Positions 16,544-28,094 of a DNA stretch of 30,416 nt are shown here, in pieces. The stretch's first letter is position 1. Every line of letters begins with the position of its first letter. Under the pieces are notes generated by a model. It was given only the letters and a program-made list of their open reading frames with translations. It ran no database searches and was not told the origin of the DNA. Source of the DNA: a virus. The DNA lies in the IMG/VR virus record IMGVR_UViG_3300034072_002212, positions 1 to 30,416 of that record; one strand, given 5' to 3'. A program made the translations under genes and the position numbers.

Positions 16544-17188
16544 TTAGACCCCCATCTTCACGGGATCGCTAGCCGCGTGGACCGCCTCGATCAGCTGGAT
16601 CTGGCTCTCGAGAATGTGCTTGATGTTCTCGTAGGCGTTGACCTGGTGCGAGAACAGTCGGCGGGCCTTCTTCAGCATGGGAAAGAAGAGGTCATGCACC
16701 TCGCGGATGTATTCCTTCTGCTTCTCCAGCTTGAACACGCCGACCATGGACTGCAGGTTGTGCATCCGGTCGCAGCCCTTGGCGATGCTCGCGATGGGGT
16801 CCTGGCTCATGGCCTCGAAGAGGGCCTTCTCGTCCTTCTTCACACCGCGGAACTCTTTGGTCATGTTCTCGACCGCACGGTCGACGCGGGCTGCGAACTC
16901 GGGATCTTCGAAGAAGAGATCGCGGATCTCGGCTGCGGTCACGCCGTAGTCTTCCCGCACATCGTGGAGCAGGATGGTCGCAATCACTTCCTGGCGGAAC
17001 ATCAGGTCCGGCAGGGTCAGCGCAAAGAGCGCAATCTCGATTTGATGTTGGAACTCGGGAGTGATGCCGTCCTTGCGGAGGCCGGTGTGATACCGATGCG
17101 CGAATTCCAGTGCGGCCAGCGCGTGATGATAGCGGGCACCAATGAGCTGTTGCCGGAGCGTCAGCAGCTTCTTCTGGAACTTGGTCAC
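16544..17188 (-). CDS. HD-domain SpoT/Mesh1-like (p)ppGpp hydrolase
   Basis: 214 residues, the size of small alarmone hydrolases. The family pattern is visible in order: AHRYHTGLRKDG (about 30-41), QHQIEIA (47-53), ATILLHDVREDYGVT with H75, D76, E79 and D80, then AVENMTK (a TK signature at 110-111), and CDRMHNL at 139-145. These supply the Mn-binding histidines and aspartates and the ED pair that attacks the 3'-pyrophosphate. No synthetase, TGS or ACT domain is present. It would lower host ppGpp or a related nucleotide. The usual YxxHP becomes FQHQ, so another substrate is possible. The start is GTG at 17188, with AGGAG 9 nt upstream inside a nested inverted repeat. Confidence 0.8.
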   Translation of the reverse strand: MTKFQKKLLTLRQQLIGARYHHALAALEFAHRYHTGLRKDGITPEFQHQIEIALFALTLPDLMFRQEVIATILLHDVREDYGVTAAEIRDLFFEDPEFAARVDRAVENMTKEFRGVKKDEKALFEAMSQDPIASIAKGCDRMHNLQSMVGVFKLEKQKEYIREVHDLFFPMLKKARRLFSHQVNAYENIKHILESQIQLIEAVHAASDPVKMGV

Positions 17189-19958: not shown

Positions 19959-20387
19959 ATGCGCGAAAAACAGGCTGCTTCTATTGAAGAAACCAAAATC
20001 TATATTCAATCTAGGATTGTAAAAGATCCAGAAACTGATTGCTGGATTTGGTCCCAATTGAAGGACAAGAAAGGCTATGGTCTAGTTGATAGGGACACAC
20101 GGATCTTTCGTCTAGCCAAAACTACACATATCCATCGCGTATCCTACCTAGCATTCAAAGGCAAGTTAGAGGAAGGAATGGTTATTCGCCATCGCTGTAA
20201 TAACCATTCCTGTTGCAACCCTGTTCATCTAGAACAAGGAACTCAGCTTCAAAATATGGCTGACAAATATGAAGCTTTGGGTCAAAGGTCAGATGCTGCG
20301 CTAGTTGTTCTCAAACGTCAGCTGCAAGAATCTTTAGAAGCGGTCGAACAAGAACTCAGCCGACGAAAAAAGAGCCCCGGCGCATAG
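19959..20387 (+). CDS. HNH endonuclease, probable homing type, AT-rich
   Basis: 142 residues. CWIWSQLKDKKGYG (28-41), THIHRVSYLAFKG (56-68), IRHRCNNHSCCNPVHLEQGT (76-95) and QNMADK follow the HNH_3 pattern of group I intron-type and free-standing phage homing nucleases. The C-terminus is a charged helix. The gene is plainly more AT-rich than both neighbours and lies on the opposite strand between them, which marks it as a recent insertion. Its last codons overlap the terminator of the ncRNA that runs towards it. Confidence 0.85.
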   Translation: MREKQAASIEETKIYIQSRIVKDPETDCWIWSQLKDKKGYGLVDRDTRIFRLAKTTHIHRVSYLAFKGKLEEGMVIRHRCNNHSCCNPVHLEQGTQLQNMADKYEALGQRSDAALVVLKRQLQESLEAVEQELSRRKKSPGA

Positions 20388-20537
20388 CACCAGGGCCCAA
20401 GGAAAGCAGGAGATCGGTCTCAACTGCTATCGGAAACTCGGTTGCAAGGTTATTGTCGGGGCCCTATTGTCGGGCTGGCGATGGACGGCCATCCACACCA
20501 GTAAGTCCCTATCGCCGGGCCCTTATCGTCGCCTTGC
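20365..20537 (-). ncRNA. Apparent structured small RNA, about 170 nt
   Basis: A TTGACA promoter, about 170 nt without a convincing reading frame, and a U-rich terminator define a compact unit on the minus strand. The 5' half folds into a long hairpin. GCAAGG pairs with CCTTGC, then comes a symmetric 9 by 9 internal loop (CGACGATAA opposite CGACAATAA), GGGCCC with GGGCCC, a second internal loop with CGATAGGG opposite CGACAATA, CTGG with CCAG, and GATGG with CCATC closing a small loop. The CGAYRATA-like element occurs four times, twice on each side. The end points are estimates from the promoter and terminator. No known RNA family is recognised. Confidence 0.65.
20366..20396 (-). terminator. 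Rho-independent terminator of the small RNA
   Basis: On the minus strand GCCCTGGTGC (20396-20387) pairs with GCGCCGGGGC (20383-20374) through ten pairs (two G-U), with a 3-nt loop, followed by TCTTTTTT. It overlaps the last codons of the convergent HNH gene. Confidence 0.85.
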
Positions 20538-20543
20538 CACACC

Positions 20544-20571
20544 TTGATAGCACCAGGAGACTTTGTGTCAA
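20544..20571 (-). promoter_or_regulatory. Sigma70-like promoter of the small RNA (TTGACA, 16 nt, TATCAA)
   Basis: TTGACA at 20571-20566, a 16-nt spacer and TATCAA at 20549-20544 on the minus strand, 4 nt after the stop of the antitoxin-domain gene. The spacer contains GTCTCCTGG, like spacers of other promoters here. No gene starts downstream; only the ncRNA follows. Confidence 0.7.
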
Positions 20572-20575
20572 CCGT

Positions 20576-20767
20576 TTAATTGAAGGTATGACGAGAAATT
20601 CCACCCAGGTGAATCAGCACGCGATTGGTGCCTTCCTCTGTCTCACTGAGTGCCCTGGGAGTGCCACCAAGAGTAGCAGAGGTATGGTCAATCCAGTCGA
20701 GGGCCTTGGCTTCGTCACCTAGGACGTCAGTGGCTTTCTCGACAATCTTCTGTAGGTTAGGGGTCAT
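20576..20767 (-). CDS. Solitary MbcA/ParS/Xre antitoxin toxin-binding domain protein (DUF2384-like), 63 aa
   Basis: ATDVLGDEAKALDWIDHTSA, then LGGTPRALSETEEGTNRVL, then HLGGISRHTF match the DUF2384 pattern (G-D...A..W......LGG..P......T..G...V...L.RI.HG). In RES-Xre and MbcT-MbcA systems this domain, at the antitoxin C-terminus, covers the active site of an NAD-degrading RES toxin. Here it makes up nearly the whole protein: there is no helix-turn-helix domain and no RES toxin gene next to it. A likely role is to neutralise a host toxin during infection, which is inference. ATG 20767 has GGAG upstream; the upstream gene stops 3 nt before. Confidence 0.75.
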   Translation of the reverse strand: MTPNLQKIVEKATDVLGDEAKALDWIDHTSATLGGTPRALSETEEGTNRVLIHLGGISRHTFN

Positions 20768-20770
20768 GAT

Positions 20771-21262
20771 TTACTCCACGCGGAGGTCTGTGTTCCTAAC
20801 CGTTTTAGCATATTCCACCACGTCGCCGCACTTAAAAGATGACAAACGGCTCAAAGTATAATCACCAGGGATGAGCTTCGCAGGGACATCAAGTGCCTGG
20901 GCAAACTTCTCGCTCTTATCACCGGCATAGAATTCGCCATTGTCCTGTGACCACATGACCGTGTTACCCGACGGGTGATGGAGGATCCAACGCCAGCTGG
21001 TTTTCACATAGCAGGGCTCGCCTTCGGTGCGCTTGATCTGGATGTTGTAGAAGATCTGCGAGTCGCGCTTGATCTGAACAGTTTCCTGGCCGAATGGTTC
21101 TGCGCTCACGTAGCTACTGGTGATCACGGCACTAGCCGCGTTGTCACGGTCTTCCTGGATGCTTTTGTTGGTGCTGGCAATAACATTGGCGAGCATAACG
21201 TAAATGCCGAAGAGGCCAATAGCCACCACGCCAAGCTTAATGATAGTGCGAATCCAGTCCAT
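20771..21262 (-). CDS. Membrane-anchored protein with periplasmic domain, 163 aa
   Basis: One N-terminal membrane segment (about residues 9-28, LGVVAIGLFGIYVMLANVIA) is followed by an Asn/Asp-rich linker and a soluble, probably beta-rich domain with two Cys (in EPCYVK and SFKCGD). It is likely anchored with the domain in the periplasm. GGAG precedes ATG 21262. A GGTAAATA late motif lies 31 nt upstream in the loop of a strong hairpin. It forms a unit with the antitoxin-domain gene 3 nt downstream. Function unknown. Confidence 0.7.
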   Translation of the reverse strand: MDWIRTIIKLGVVAIGLFGIYVMLANVIASTNKSIQEDRDNAASAVITSSYVSAEPFGQETVQIKRDSQIFYNIQIKRTEGEPCYVKTSWRWILHHPSGNTVMWSQDNGEFYAGDKSEKFAQALDVPAKLIPGDYTLSRLSSFKCGDVVEYAKTVRNTDLRVE

Positions 21263-21280
21263 GAGGTCTCCAGAGACAAT

Positions 21281-21311
21281 AAGGGCTCGCTGTATTTACC
21301 AGCGAGCCCTT
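21281..21311 (-). terminator. 12-bp hairpin with a late promoter in its loop
   Basis: AAGGGCTCGCTG (21281-21292) and CAGCGAGCCCTT (21300-21311) pair perfectly. The 7-nt loop reads TATTTAC on the plus strand, so the minus strand carries GTAAATA there. The hairpin lies 37 nt after the DUF350 stop and is followed on the minus strand by ATTGTCT, a weak U tract. It may end the envelope-cassette message, while late transcription starting in the loop would escape the hairpin. Confidence 0.7.
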
Positions 21312-21348
21312 AATGTGTTCTAGGCCCTCTACGGGCTTCTGTGGACCC

Positions 21349-21795
21349 TTACGGGACCATGCAGGCCGCCTGGAGGATGCCGATGCCCAGACCGATGCCG
21401 CCGATGAAAACGCCCGAAGCCGAGCAGTTGTCCTCGATGCGCTTCTCGATTCCCGAGAACGCCTTGGCGATCACGAAGAACACCGCCAGCTGGACGACCA
21501 GCACGACCGCGCCCCAGAGGGCCATGTCGAAGATGCTGACCGAGTGGCCGATGACGATCGCCATCGGAACCGCGAAGCCGAGGAACGTGCCGACCAGCTG
21601 AGTTGCTGCCGCGGTGTTGCCGTTCTTGATCAGCGCGAATTCCTTGTGCGGCGTGATCAGGGTGTAGAGCACCAGGAAGACCACGGCCAGGAGCAGCGAG
21701 GCGCCGAAATAGCCGAGGAAGTGCGGGAGGGCGTCACCGAAATAAGCGACGATCGGGTTGGTGGTGGCCTCAGTGGCCGGAGCGGTGGTATTCAT
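21349..21795 (-). CDS. DUF350 (YjfL-like) integral membrane protein
   Basis: 148 residues with about four hydrophobic segments (roughly 24-45, 64-84, 90-112 and 128-147). The DUF350 signature ALIKNGNTAAATQLVGTFLG followed by PMAIVIGHS, and WGAVVLVVQLAVFFV, is clear. In bacteria DUF350 proteins are found beside glutathionylspermidine-synthase-like ATP-grasp enzymes and DUF1190 lipoproteins (the yjfL, yjfC and yjfM genes of E. coli), as here. GGAG lies before ATG 21795, 13 nt after the upstream ATP-grasp gene. Its molecular role is unknown; inner-membrane location is expected. Confidence 0.85.
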   Translation of the reverse strand: MNTTAPATEATTNPIVAYFGDALPHFLGYFGASLLLAVVFLVLYTLITPHKEFALIKNGNTAAATQLVGTFLGFAVPMAIVIGHSVSIFDMALWGAVVLVVQLAVFFVIAKAFSGIEKRIEDNCSASGVFIGGIGLGIGILQAACMVP

Positions 21796-21808
21796 TGCTG
21801 CGATCTCC

Positions 21809-22987
21809 TTATTCGCTGTCGGGCAGGAAGTAGTGAGGGATGAAGCGAGAAGTGTTGCCCGTCACCTCGCTCACGTCTTCGCGGATGCCCATGCCCGACG
21901 GGCGGCCGCCTACGATCCAGCTGCCGATGATCGGCGTCATGCCGTCGTGCTTCGGAAGCGGAAGGTATTCCTGGTAGATGGCCTTGGCCAGCGCATCATA
22001 GCCGCGCTTGACGCCCTCGACGGCGACCTTACCATCCCGAATGATCTTCACGTCTGCGCCCTCGCGCGCCAGCATGGGCTTCTCGACATAGTTGCCCTTG
22101 AGCGGCGCGCTCTGCCAGTAGGCCGGCAGCAGGTTCTCGTGACCCTCGTAGAGTTCCCAGAGGATGGGCAGGATGCCCTTGTTCGAGAGAACCAGCTTCC
22201 AGGCCGGCTCCAGAACGTCCCAGGGCTCCTTGAGCATGAACTTGCCGAAGTCCTCGCGGACCAGCCATTCCCAGGGATAGAGCTTGAAAATCGTGTTGAT
22301 CGGCTTCTCGTTGAGATCCGTGAACGAGGTGCCGTTCCAGCCGATCTGCTCGATATCGAGATAGTCGGTCTTGAGGCCGGCCTGGATCGCGCAGTCCCGG
22401 AGGTATTCCGCCGTGCCCTTGTCCTCGAGGTTCTCCGCGACCGCCGCGAAGTAGAACGTCTCGTTCGGGCCGAGCACCTGGTCGCCGACATACTTCAGCT
22501 GTTCGATCAGCCGCTCATGGATGCTGTTGAACTGATCGAGCGTCTGACCCGTGCGCTGGGCATACTGTTCCATCCAGAACCACTGGACGACCGATGCCTC
22601 GAGCAGCGAAGTCGGAGTGTCGGCGTTGAACTCCAGCATCTTGGGAGTGCCATCGGCCGCCAGAGCGAAGTCGAAGCGACCATAGAGGTCCACGTCCTGG
22701 CGCTCCCAGGACTTCTTGATCAGCGCGTGGAAGTCGGCGGGGATGGCGAGCTGGCTGAGCAGGTCACGCTCGATCGCATAGTCGACTGCCGAAAGGCACA
22801 TGCGATCGAGGACCGTGCTGGCTTCCTCGATCTTGTCGACTTCGCCGGCCGTGAATTCATATGCGTGGGTTTCATCCCAATACATGGGATCGACACCGGG
22901 GTCGGTTGCGAGGGTGTGCCAGTAGAAACCGACCTTCTCGCACTGTGCCTGCCAATCCGGCCGGGCTTCAATTGCCAAACGCTTCAA
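21809..22987 (-). CDS. Glutathionylspermidine synthase-like ATP-grasp amidoligase (YgiC/YjfC family)
   Basis: 392 residues, the length of YgiC and YjfC. MKRLAIEARPDWQAQCEKVGF at the N-terminus, DLYGRFDFALAADGTPKMLE, FNADTPTSLLEASVVQWFW, FKLYPWEWLVRE, EGHENLLPAYW, and KGNYVEKPMLAREGADVKI are family hallmarks that supply the ATP-grasp nucleotide and Mg sites. The amidase domain of true GspS is absent, as in YgiC/YjfC. It probably joins an amine to a peptide or protein carboxylate; the substrate is unknown. The start is TTG at 22987 with AGGAG six bases upstream, behind a TTGACT-TAGACA promoter. Confidence 0.88.
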   Translation of the reverse strand: MKRLAIEARPDWQAQCEKVGFYWHTLATDPGVDPMYWDETHAYEFTAGEVDKIEEASTVLDRMCLSAVDYAIERDLLSQLAIPADFHALIKKSWERQDVDLYGRFDFALAADGTPKMLEFNADTPTSLLEASVVQWFWMEQYAQRTGQTLDQFNSIHERLIEQLKYVGDQVLGPNETFYFAAVAENLEDKGTAEYLRDCAIQAGLKTDYLDIEQIGWNGTSFTDLNEKPINTIFKLYPWEWLVREDFGKFMLKEPWDVLEPAWKLVLSNKGILPILWELYEGHENLLPAYWQSAPLKGNYVEKPMLAREGADVKIIRDGKVAVEGVKRGYDALAKAIYQEYLPLPKHDGMTPIIGSWIVGGRPSGMGIREDVSEVTGNTSRFIPHYFLPDSE

Positions 22988-22994
22988 TTCGATC

Positions 22995-23042
22995 TCCTGT
23001 GATCCGTTGTCCTGTGTCTATGCGAAACAGGACCGAAGTCAA
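22995..23042 (-). promoter_or_regulatory. Sigma70-like promoter with alternative RBS hairpins
   Basis: TTGACT (23042-23037), 16 nt, TAGACA (23020-23015) on the minus strand. The spacer arm ACAGGAC (23027-23033) can pair with GTCCTGT (23009-23015). Its core can instead pair with TCCTGT at 22995-23000, which is the ribosome-binding site of the TTG-started ATP-grasp gene. Confidence 0.6.
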
Positions 23043-23054
23043 CCGCTTTGTGGC

Positions 23055-23528
23055 TTATTGTGGAACGCCTCGGGTAATCTGAACCACATCACCCACTTTC
23101 CAAGTGCTGTAGTCACCGGGCTGTCCACACGTGAACAAAACCTTGCCCCCTACAAGGGTGCCGTCAATCCACGTCGTCTTGTCATCATCCTTACCGGACA
23201 CTGACAACGCCTTGATTTCAATAGGAAGCTTACCTGAGCAAACTGCCTTGACGTCCACGGGATCGTATTCCTTACCAGGAACCCTGAACACCACACGGTC
23301 CTTGTAGACGATCTCGGGTGGCTTGACCCGCTTTTCGACCACTTCCTTGACCACAGTTTCTTTGCGCGTCACGGGGATCGCTCGGGCAATCAGGATACCA
23401 ATACCCGTGATTGCGCCGAGGATCACACCTGTGGTCACCACCGTGCGAAACGAACGCTGATCCCTTGGCCAGAAGTAGAAGCTGATTCCAAGAATCAGGA
23501 TCAGGAGAAAGGCCCAGAGAATCGACAT
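23055..23528 (-). CDS. Two-TM membrane protein of the envelope cassette, 157 aa
   Basis: Two N-terminal hydrophobic segments (about 2-19 and 31-51) with PRDQRSFR between them form a hairpin. A basic/acidic linker (RKETVVKEVVEKRVK) and a soluble C-terminal domain follow, with two Cys (in AVCSG and FTCGQ). With a short loop and two crossings, N- and C-termini are on the same side. AAGGAAC precedes ATG 23528, 9 nt after the lipoprotein stop. No named family is recognised; its role is tied to the cassette by position. Confidence 0.7.
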   Translation of the reverse strand: MSILWAFLLILILGISFYFWPRDQRSFRTVVTTGVILGAITGIGILIARAIPVTRKETVVKEVVEKRVKPPEIVYKDRVVFRVPGKEYDPVDVKAVCSGKLPIEIKALSVSGKDDDKTTWIDGTLVGGKVLFTCGQPGDYSTWKVGDVVQITRGVPQ

Positions 23529-23537
23529 AATCGTTCC

Positions 23538-24068
23538 TTAACCGGCCTTGCGGCCCGACTGGCCAACGATGGGTAGATCAGCCGGCGAGGATGCCTCGGG
23601 GGTTGGGGTGGCGACCGGAGCCGGCGTTTCCGTCGGCGTTGGGGTCGGGGTAGGGGTTGGCGTTGCGACCGGCTTGGGCTCGTCCGGCTGATAGAACGGA
23701 CTCACACCAATCGGGCTGAGCCCGAGCCGCTGAGCATATTCCTGGAGCGTGAGACCTTCCATCCACAAGACGCAGTTTGCCTGCGCGTTCGTGTATTGGA
23801 GAGTCTGCTGGCCGAAGTTCGTGACATCGCTGTCCTTACGGAAAACTCGGACACCAGCAGCCAGGGCCTCAGGGGTCAGCAGCCGCGCGCGAAGGTCACC
23901 CGTGACCTCGGACGACACATAGACGCCCATGTTGCTGGCAGGAATACACCGACCGGCCTTGCCTGCGAGATCCACTGCCTGGACGTTCACCGGCGCGTTG
24001 GGATTGGACTCCGCGCAGCCGGCCAACAGGAGGCCGACTGCGAGAGTGCCCAGGATTGCGGCGCGCAT
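23538..24068 (-). CDS. Lipoprotein with Pro-Thr repeat tail, 176 aa
   Basis: MRAAILGTLAVGLLLAGCAE is a lipoprotein signal with lipobox LAGC. A soluble domain of about 115 residues contains two further Cys (in GRCIPAS and ANCVLWM). It is followed by a Pro-Thr dipeptide run (about 135-145) and an Ala/Pro/Ser tail, which looks like a wall- or envelope-spanning linker. The start codon overlaps the stop of the DUF1190 gene as TAATG, so both are made from one message and probably work together. Family not recognised. Confidence 0.75.
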   Translation of the reverse strand: MRAAILGTLAVGLLLAGCAESNPNAPVNVQAVDLAGKAGRCIPASNMGVYVSSEVTGDLRARLLTPEALAAGVRVFRKDSDVTNFGQQTLQYTNAQANCVLWMEGLTLQEYAQRLGLSPIGVSPFYQPDEPKPVATPTPTPTPTPTETPAPVATPTPEASSPADLPIVGQSGRKAG

Positions 24069-24835
24069 TAGCCGCCGAACCCACCGCCGAAGCTACGACC
24101 CGAGGCGCCGAAACCACCGCGCGAGCTGATGCTCGACGAGGCCTTGTAGCTGGAGCCGCTCGAATAGCTCTTGCCCGCCGTGCTGCCGGTCGAACGCGAG
24201 TAGGACGAGTTGCCGAAGCTGCTGGGGTTGGTCGCCTGGTAGGACGACTTGAAACTCTGCGTGGGCTTGAACGACGAACCGAAGCCGCCGCGAACGCTCG
24301 AGGGCGGCGTCATTGCCGTGCTGGACTTCAGCGCGCCCTTGGTGGAAACGCCCGTGCCAGCGGTGCTGCGGTAGGGTGCTGCGCCGATGGGAGCATTGCG
24401 GGCATAGCCAGCGCCCGACGTGTAGATCGGCGCCTGGTAGTCCCGACGATCACGGTAGCGATAGGAGCCCGGACCGTAATAGAGAGGAGCCGGCGTCGAG
24501 AGAGCCGAACCCATCATGTAGCCCATCATCATGGGCACGAAGAAGTTGCCGCTGCCGCCATATGCCGAGATCGGCTGGCACATATCCGGACCATACTCCT
24601 GGCGGCACGCCTCGATCGAGGCATAGCGCGGAGCATTGTTGACGTGTTCGGTGCGGGCGAGGCGGTCAGCCGCATCGCAGGTTGCCTGGTCATAGACCGC
24701 GACGCATTCCGCCTTGTTCGCGAAAGTGCCGCCGTTGTCCGCGGGCGCCGGGGGTGCTTGTTCGCAACCCGAGAGCGTTGCCGCGGCACTGACGCTGGCC
24801 AAGAGGACCAGCGAAACTCGGGTGCTGCGCTTCAT
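24068..24835 (-). CDS. DUF1190 (YgiB/YjfM-like) lipoprotein
   Basis: 255 residues. MKRSTRVSLVLLASVSAAATLSGCE carries a lipobox (LSGC). The YgiB pattern follows: KAECVAVYDQATCDAADR, APRYASIEACRQEYGPDMCQ, FFVPMMMGYMMG (the family hallmark), and a Gly/Ser/Tyr-rich tail with RGGFG repeats ending in GGGFGG. Four conserved Cys in the first part could form disulphides. E. coli YgiB sits next to YgiC; the same pairing with an ATP-grasp enzyme is preserved here in a phage. AAGGAA precedes ATG 24835. Outer-membrane or periplasmic location is expected. Confidence 0.82.
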   Translation of the reverse strand: MKRSTRVSLVLLASVSAAATLSGCEQAPPAPADNGGTFANKAECVAVYDQATCDAADRLARTEHVNNAPRYASIEACRQEYGPDMCQPISAYGGSGNFFVPMMMGYMMGSALSTPAPLYYGPGSYRYRDRRDYQAPIYTSGAGYARNAPIGAAPYRSTAGTGVSTKGALKSSTAMTPPSSVRGGFGSSFKPTQSFKSSYQATNPSSFGNSSYSRSTGSTAGKSYSSGSSYKASSSISSRGGFGASGRSFGGGFGG

Positions 24836-27779: not shown

Positions 27780-28073
27780 TCAAGCCTTTTCGACAATAGC
27801 CTTGAGGGGATGCTTATAGGACTTGGCGACCGTGTTGGTCTCATAGACCTTCTGCTCGGCGACTTCCTTGCTGTAGGTGCCGCAGATGCCCCGACCCTGA
27901 TGGTGAACGTCCATGCAGAGCTTGTGCGCTTCTGCGTGGCTCTTGCTGAAGATCTCCATCAGCACCTGGATCACGAAGTCCATGGGCGTGAAGTCATCGT
28001 TCAGGATCACAACCTTGTAGAGGCTGGGAACCTTCAGCTTGGTTACAGTCTGAGTGTCGAGTGCGGTGCTCAT
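27780..28073 (-). CDS. clpS: ClpS-like adaptor protein
   Basis: 97 residues. SLYKVVILNDDFTPMDFVIQ (17-36), AHKLCMDVHHQGRGICGTYS and EVAEQKVYETN cover the full ClpS core. The N-degron pocket residues N25, D26, D27, T29, M31, V56 and H57 match E. coli N34, D35, D36, T38, M40, V65 and H66. The position of M62 is Cys53. ClpS delivers proteins with destabilising N-terminal residues to ClpA(C)P and blocks other substrates. A phage copy could redirect host proteolysis. ATG 28073 has AAGGAG seven bases upstream, behind a TTGATT-TATGTA promoter. Confidence 0.9.
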   Translation of the reverse strand: MSTALDTQTVTKLKVPSLYKVVILNDDFTPMDFVIQVLMEIFSKSHAEAHKLCMDVHHQGRGICGTYSKEVAEQKVYETNTVAKSYKHPLKAIVEKA

Positions 28074-28094
28074 GTGGTCTCCTTGGTTCACACC

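Follow-up and report, generated by a model that had tools for sequence, protein, structure and literature searches.

An orphan, HTH-less RES-antitoxin domain in a lineage of huge phages: a candidate inhibitor of host NAD-consuming toxins

Results

The window analysed here, 30,416 nucleotides in length, comprises positions 1-30416 of IMGVR_UViG_3300034072_002212, a 181,816-bp IMG/VR virus record. On its minus strand, at 20576..20767, lies a gene of 63 aa for a stand-alone Xre/MbcA/ParS C-terminal toxin-binding domain without an HTH, an assignment based on Pfam, NCBIfam, fold, homologues and selection. For comparison, five related records of uncultured phages (G000-G004) were used, namely the 181.8-kb record holding the window and four relatives of 417-465 kb. 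L001, L002 and L003 denote the loci around the domain gene in three other huge phages, and L012 the matching locus of G004.

The domain gene starts with ATG and occupies a stop-to-stop frame of 64 aa. Its product matched PF09722 (Xre_MbcA_ParS_C) with an E-value of 6e-7 and a score of 29.8 bits, above the cut-off of 24.5; residues 11-56 covered positions 2-48 of the 51-position profile, and no other Pfam family was matched at E<=1. The preliminary description had called the protein almost nothing but the DUF2384 toxin-binding domain, and the Pfam search bears this out. NCBIfam NF049845 (RES/Xre antitoxin) was matched at E 6.5e-8 by the C-terminal half of its profile only, and this match falls below the model's full-length cut-off. 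An N-terminal Xre-like HTH (PF20432) was sought with Pfam in the 63 aa and was not found, and none lies in frame upstream in the four carrier phages, so the earlier statement that the HTH is missing also holds. A ribosome-binding-site-like GTGGAG precedes the ATG in all four carriers. The upstream gene of the window, L002 and L003 stops 3-4 nt before the domain-gene start, and the DNA there encodes this other protein in another frame; in L001 it is intergenic. A hidden HTH or a longer gene was ruled out by the frame and start context in the four phages. No PHROGs family matched the 63-aa protein, and it was likewise unmatched in PADLOC. The protein thus has the toxin-binding domain of the Xre/MbcA/ParS antitoxin family and lacks its N-terminal HTH.

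The gene upstream (20771..21262, minus strand) encodes a protein of 163 aa that belongs to no family and is hydrophobic over an N-terminal stretch; the gene stops 3 nt before the domain gene. It is absent from L001, and L012 has it but no domain gene. Each gene therefore occurs without the other, and the 163-aa protein was rejected as an obligate partner. Between the 163-aa gene and DUF350 lies a 13-pair bidirectional terminator-like hairpin (21280..21312; a consensus match only), and because of it the domain-gene unit is probably transcribed apart from GSP-synthase and DUF350. The minus strand at 21349-24835 holds a closely spaced set of GSP-synthase-like, DUF350 and DUF1190 genes, which we take to recall the bacterial yjfLMC and ygiBC gene groups.

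The preliminary description had placed the domain gene directly upstream of a small RNA unit, and a conserved structured non-coding stretch does follow it (20372..20570, minus strand), ended by a terminator-like hairpin at 20372-20398. Equivalent stretches lie at 10195-10420 in L001, 10190-10410 in L002 and 10192-10450 in L003. In the window the stretch folds into a long hairpin (z -2.5); near-symmetric internal loops interrupt its stems and contain the repeated motifs GACGATA / CGATAGGG / CGACAATA. These loop motifs are invariant in the four phages, while stem bases vary. Rfam gave no match at gathering score for the stretch. On the opposite strand, an HNH endonuclease gene (19959-20387, plus strand) lies between the RNA unit and a 568-aa gene; it looks like a mobile insertion, because the same interval is only ~300 bases in L001-L003.

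Elsewhere in the window, the minus strand carries a phage ClpS, the Clp protease adaptor (27780-28091; PF02617, E 7e-31), and an HD-domain protein (16544-17188) that resembles the hydrolase part of RelA/SpoT and may act on alarmones. An ADP-ribosylglycohydrolase gene (PF03747; 10111..11181, minus strand) is present in all five related phages, as is a gene of the nicotinate phosphoribosyltransferase family. In the record holding the window the latter is called as nicotinate phosphoribosyltransferase and adjoins an NAD synthase gene near a Nudix gene (L101 74-3413, ~139.0-142.3 kb of this phage record); together they form a Preiss-Handler-type NAD salvage cluster. Jumbo phages are known to encode both NAD synthesis and ADP-ribose hydrolases (PMC7824862, PMC9503650), and G004, without the domain gene, has both the NAD genes and the ADP-ribosylglycohydrolase; we therefore regard them as supporting context and not as proof.

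The fold of the 63-aa protein was modelled with AlphaFold2 from the four phage sequences only, without templates. The model had a pLDDT of 87.5, falling at the last residues. All of the top 12 Foldseek rows were chains of RES-partner antitoxins (VPA0769, P. putida Xre, NatR and ParS), with individual E-values of 0.02-0.3 and TM by query of up to 0.85. VIA-align gave Z-scores, modest alone at this size, of 10.4 for VPA0769 88-149, 9.5 for Xre 87-149 and 5.8-6.0 for NatR and ParS, compared with 3.7 for the best unrelated chain. The model spans Xre 87-149 up to the last residue of Xre and so has the C-terminal limit of the RES-partner antitoxins. The fold evidence carries weight because the top rows all belong to one family and the whole toxin-binding domain is covered.

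Residues were compared with 50 bacterial PF09722 domains, with phage numbering from Met1. Scaffold residues (A12, A22, W25, L33, G34-G35, P37, G46, V50, L54 and I57) are retained in the phage proteins, which stop at the usual C-terminal position of the bacterial domains. The C-terminal Gly found in 35 of the 50 is replaced by His60, within an invariant Ser58-Arg59-His60; the usual Pro29 is Thr or Val. Positions 38 and 41, mostly or always hydrophobic in the bacterial domains, are Arg and Ser in the phages. By sequence, the changes at 38 and 41 could reflect a lost packing surface for the HTH or a second antitoxin, or an altered toxin interface. The diverged C-terminal end is the part that enters the toxin in known complexes. 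An equivalence of phage Arg59 with NatR Arg119 was considered and dropped, as the structural alignment pairs Arg119 with the adjacent Ser58.

Homologues with 76-81% identity over the aligned protein were found by peptide patterns in IMG/VR, a census that may miss distant homologues, in three other huge phages (contigs of 436, 462 and 465 kb). The gene order common to the carriers is GSP-synthase-like, DUF350, 163-aa membrane-type (missing in L001), domain gene, conserved non-coding stretch and ~565-aa gene, and the domain gene has the same position and an intact frame in all four. Pairwise dN was 0.12-0.25 and dS 1.5-2.0, saturated in two pairs, and dN/dS was 0.08-0.12 where computable. These sequence comparisons indicate strong purifying selection on the domain gene across the four phages. 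The three huge-phage homologues and the dN/dS values also show that the ORF is more than chance.

In G004 (417 kb), another close relative, the genes follow the same order but the domain gene is missing. A tree built from the 565-aa neighbour places the four carriers in a group separate from G004 at moderate support (85/92), consistent with one origin of the domain gene among them; the tree of the GSP synthase leaves this grouping unresolved. No significant homologue of the 63-aa protein was found among INPHARED phages, and peptide patterns run against the GTDB genome collection brought up no stand-alone homologue. Searching 10 genomes with a profile yielded weak matches only (best E 0.007), and none of 40 records with a related GSP synthase had PF09722 over the cut-off. 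The nearest cultured phages, judged by neighbour genes and the nicotinate phosphoribosyltransferase (56-57% identical to theirs), are Sinorhizobium phage Phosso and Agrobacterium phage Atu_ph07, and for this reason the hosts are probably rhizobia-like bacteria. PF09722 is absent from both phages. The domain gene is therefore accessory, as it is lacking in G004, Phosso and Atu_ph07.

No RES toxin (PF08808) was found at E<=10 in G000-G004, about 2 Mb of records that may be incomplete. The preliminary description had noted no adjacent toxin and had named a nearby phage RES gene outside the window as evidence against its reading; the search found none beside the domain gene or elsewhere in the five records. 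Since a RES gene and an HTH were both sought and not found, the domain gene does not constitute a toxin-antitoxin system, and the description that suits it best is that of an orphan RES-antitoxin domain without an HTH, carried by a lineage of huge phages.

To examine the partner of the domain in likely hosts, 121 genomes from the order of a Rhizobium genome were scanned for RES and PF09722. RES was present in 59 of the 121 genomes, so candidate targets are common, and PF09722 exceeded the cut-off in 44. Nearly all PF09722 matches (59 of 63) lay at most 1 kb upstream of RES on the same strand. Because the domain pairs near-exclusively with RES, a host RES toxin is the most likely target of the phage protein. 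The shortest stop-to-stop frame among the 63 domains was 87 aa and the next 122 aa, compared with 64 in the phage. One rhizobial-order locus (L214 375-1164) encodes an 83-aa HTH-less PF09722 protein followed directly by a RES gene, which from the sequence appears to be a natural minimal, antitoxin-like partner of its toxin and a precedent for the HTH-less form. The best plasmid matches by tblastn (32-38% identity), in those inspected, were antitoxins of ~145-162 aa followed by a RES gene, and both of the plasmid antitoxins scanned with Pfam had an HTH domain.

Solved structures support the view that the isolated domain is able to grip a RES toxin. In 6D0H/6D0I the ParS construct that binds ParT, its RES toxin, has 72 residues and is named 'DUF2384 antitoxin fragment'. 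Since ParS was crystallised with its toxin in this form, the HTH is dispensable for toxin binding.

Discussion

It is on balance probable that this orphan HTH-less antitoxin binds and silences host RES-type NAD-consuming toxins in infection. The phage would make the toxin-binding domain alone. The expected target of this domain is a RES-type toxin of the host, with the activity of an NAD(P)+ phosphorylase or glycohydrolase or of an ADP-ribosyltransferase, and the C-terminal helix of the phage protein would lie within or at the RES active-site groove. Because the N-terminal DNA-binding and dimerising part is missing, the toxin would be neutralised without repression of any operon. Such a blockade would keep NAD available and avert stasis or death once the host antitoxin disappears after phage takeover. 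The phage carries the toxin-gripping half without a matching toxin, and for this reason most likely disarms a host NAD-destroying enzyme. Binding, inhibition, the RES subfamily targeted and the benefit to the phage are what we infer from these patterns. The preliminary description had likewise proposed that a reduced antitoxin silences a host RES toxin; the domain, the missing HTH and RES, and the lone-domain precedent of ParS support it in part, and the silencing itself keeps the standing given above.

The same features can be read in other ways. The domain may have been repurposed to bind another partner, a phage protein or another host enzyme, with loss of RES recognition. Divergence at the C-terminal end and substitutions at surface positions 38 and 41 would suit this, as would the lack of RES in the phage and the compact unit with the 163-aa membrane-type gene in three of the four carriers. 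However, the two genes are each found without the other, the family scaffold and exact C-terminal limit are retained, and RES is the known and mapped partner in 59 of 63 cases; we consider repurposing rather unlikely. The protein might instead act mainly on the host antitoxin or operon, where competition for RES or antitoxin would split the DNA-binding complex and derepress xre-res, with higher production of host antitoxin or a deregulated module as the result. In P. putida the stable DNA-binding Xre dimer requires RES, and a 2:2 complex fails to bind DNA and still neutralises the toxin in the authors' model (Henriksen et al., PMC12204516). An HTH-less domain would favour such 2:2-type non-DNA-binding complexes, but derepression raises the toxin too, and direct blockade is simpler and would happen anyway, which leaves an effect mainly on the operon improbable.

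A phage toxin too divergent for the RES profile would make the domain gene one half of a phage toxin-antitoxin pair. ART-fold toxins diverge fast, and many phage genes here have no family. The PF08808 search that found RES in the rhizobial genomes left all five phage records unmatched, however, and no neighbour gene constantly accompanies the domain gene, so such a pair is more improbable still. Finally, absence from the related phages G004, Phosso and Atu_ph07 might point to a decaying, functionless remnant of a captured antitoxin. The low dN/dS, the intact frame, the ribosome-binding-site-like motif and the shared position in four phages argue against it; a pseudogene is disfavoured by the dN/dS, and we regard a remnant as very improbable.

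The phage protein resembles the RES-partner antitoxins P. putida Xre, VPA0769, NatR and ParS in profile, fold and the C-terminal limit of the toxin-binding domain. It differs from them in its lack of an N-terminal HTH and of an adjacent or genome-encoded RES, in its huge-phage carriers and in its diverged last residues. The preliminary description had compared it with T4 Dmd, a phage antitoxin whose action against host RnlA/LsoA was demonstrated experimentally (PMC9503650). The comparison stands for the proposed role, a small phage protein replacing the host antitoxin, and as in phage inhibitors of this kind an antitoxin-like gene occurs without its own toxin. It does not extend to the target: Dmd acts on an RNase, whereas the proposed target here is a NAD-consuming RES fold of an unrelated class, and the analogy is one of role only. 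Unlike Dmd, the 63-aa protein would be an inhibitor homologous to the host antitoxin itself. NARP pathways and the DSR2 inhibitor DSAD1 (PMC12774641, PMC11263360) likewise serve to preserve the NAD supply of infected cells; they rebuild NAD or inhibit SIR2-type defences, whereas the 63-aa protein would block RES by antitoxin mimicry.

RES-Xre modules are widespread: within one rhizobial order, roughly half of the genomes sampled have them. To our knowledge they have no established role against phages, and their purpose is debated. NatT, the one RES toxin reported to have been tested against phages, gave no defence and had no effect on >50 phages (PMC11535050). More tentatively, the minimal HTH-less RES-antitoxin mimic of these huge phages could be a dedicated counter-defence protein. 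If so, phages in nature would be opposed by NAD-consuming RES modules, and this lineage would combine three layers: direct blockade of the toxin, NAD salvage and ADP-ribose removal. A toxin-gripping part kept alone under strong selection would be evidence for the importance of RES toxins in infection, and the 63-residue protein offers a reagent for a direct test of the role of RES in infection.
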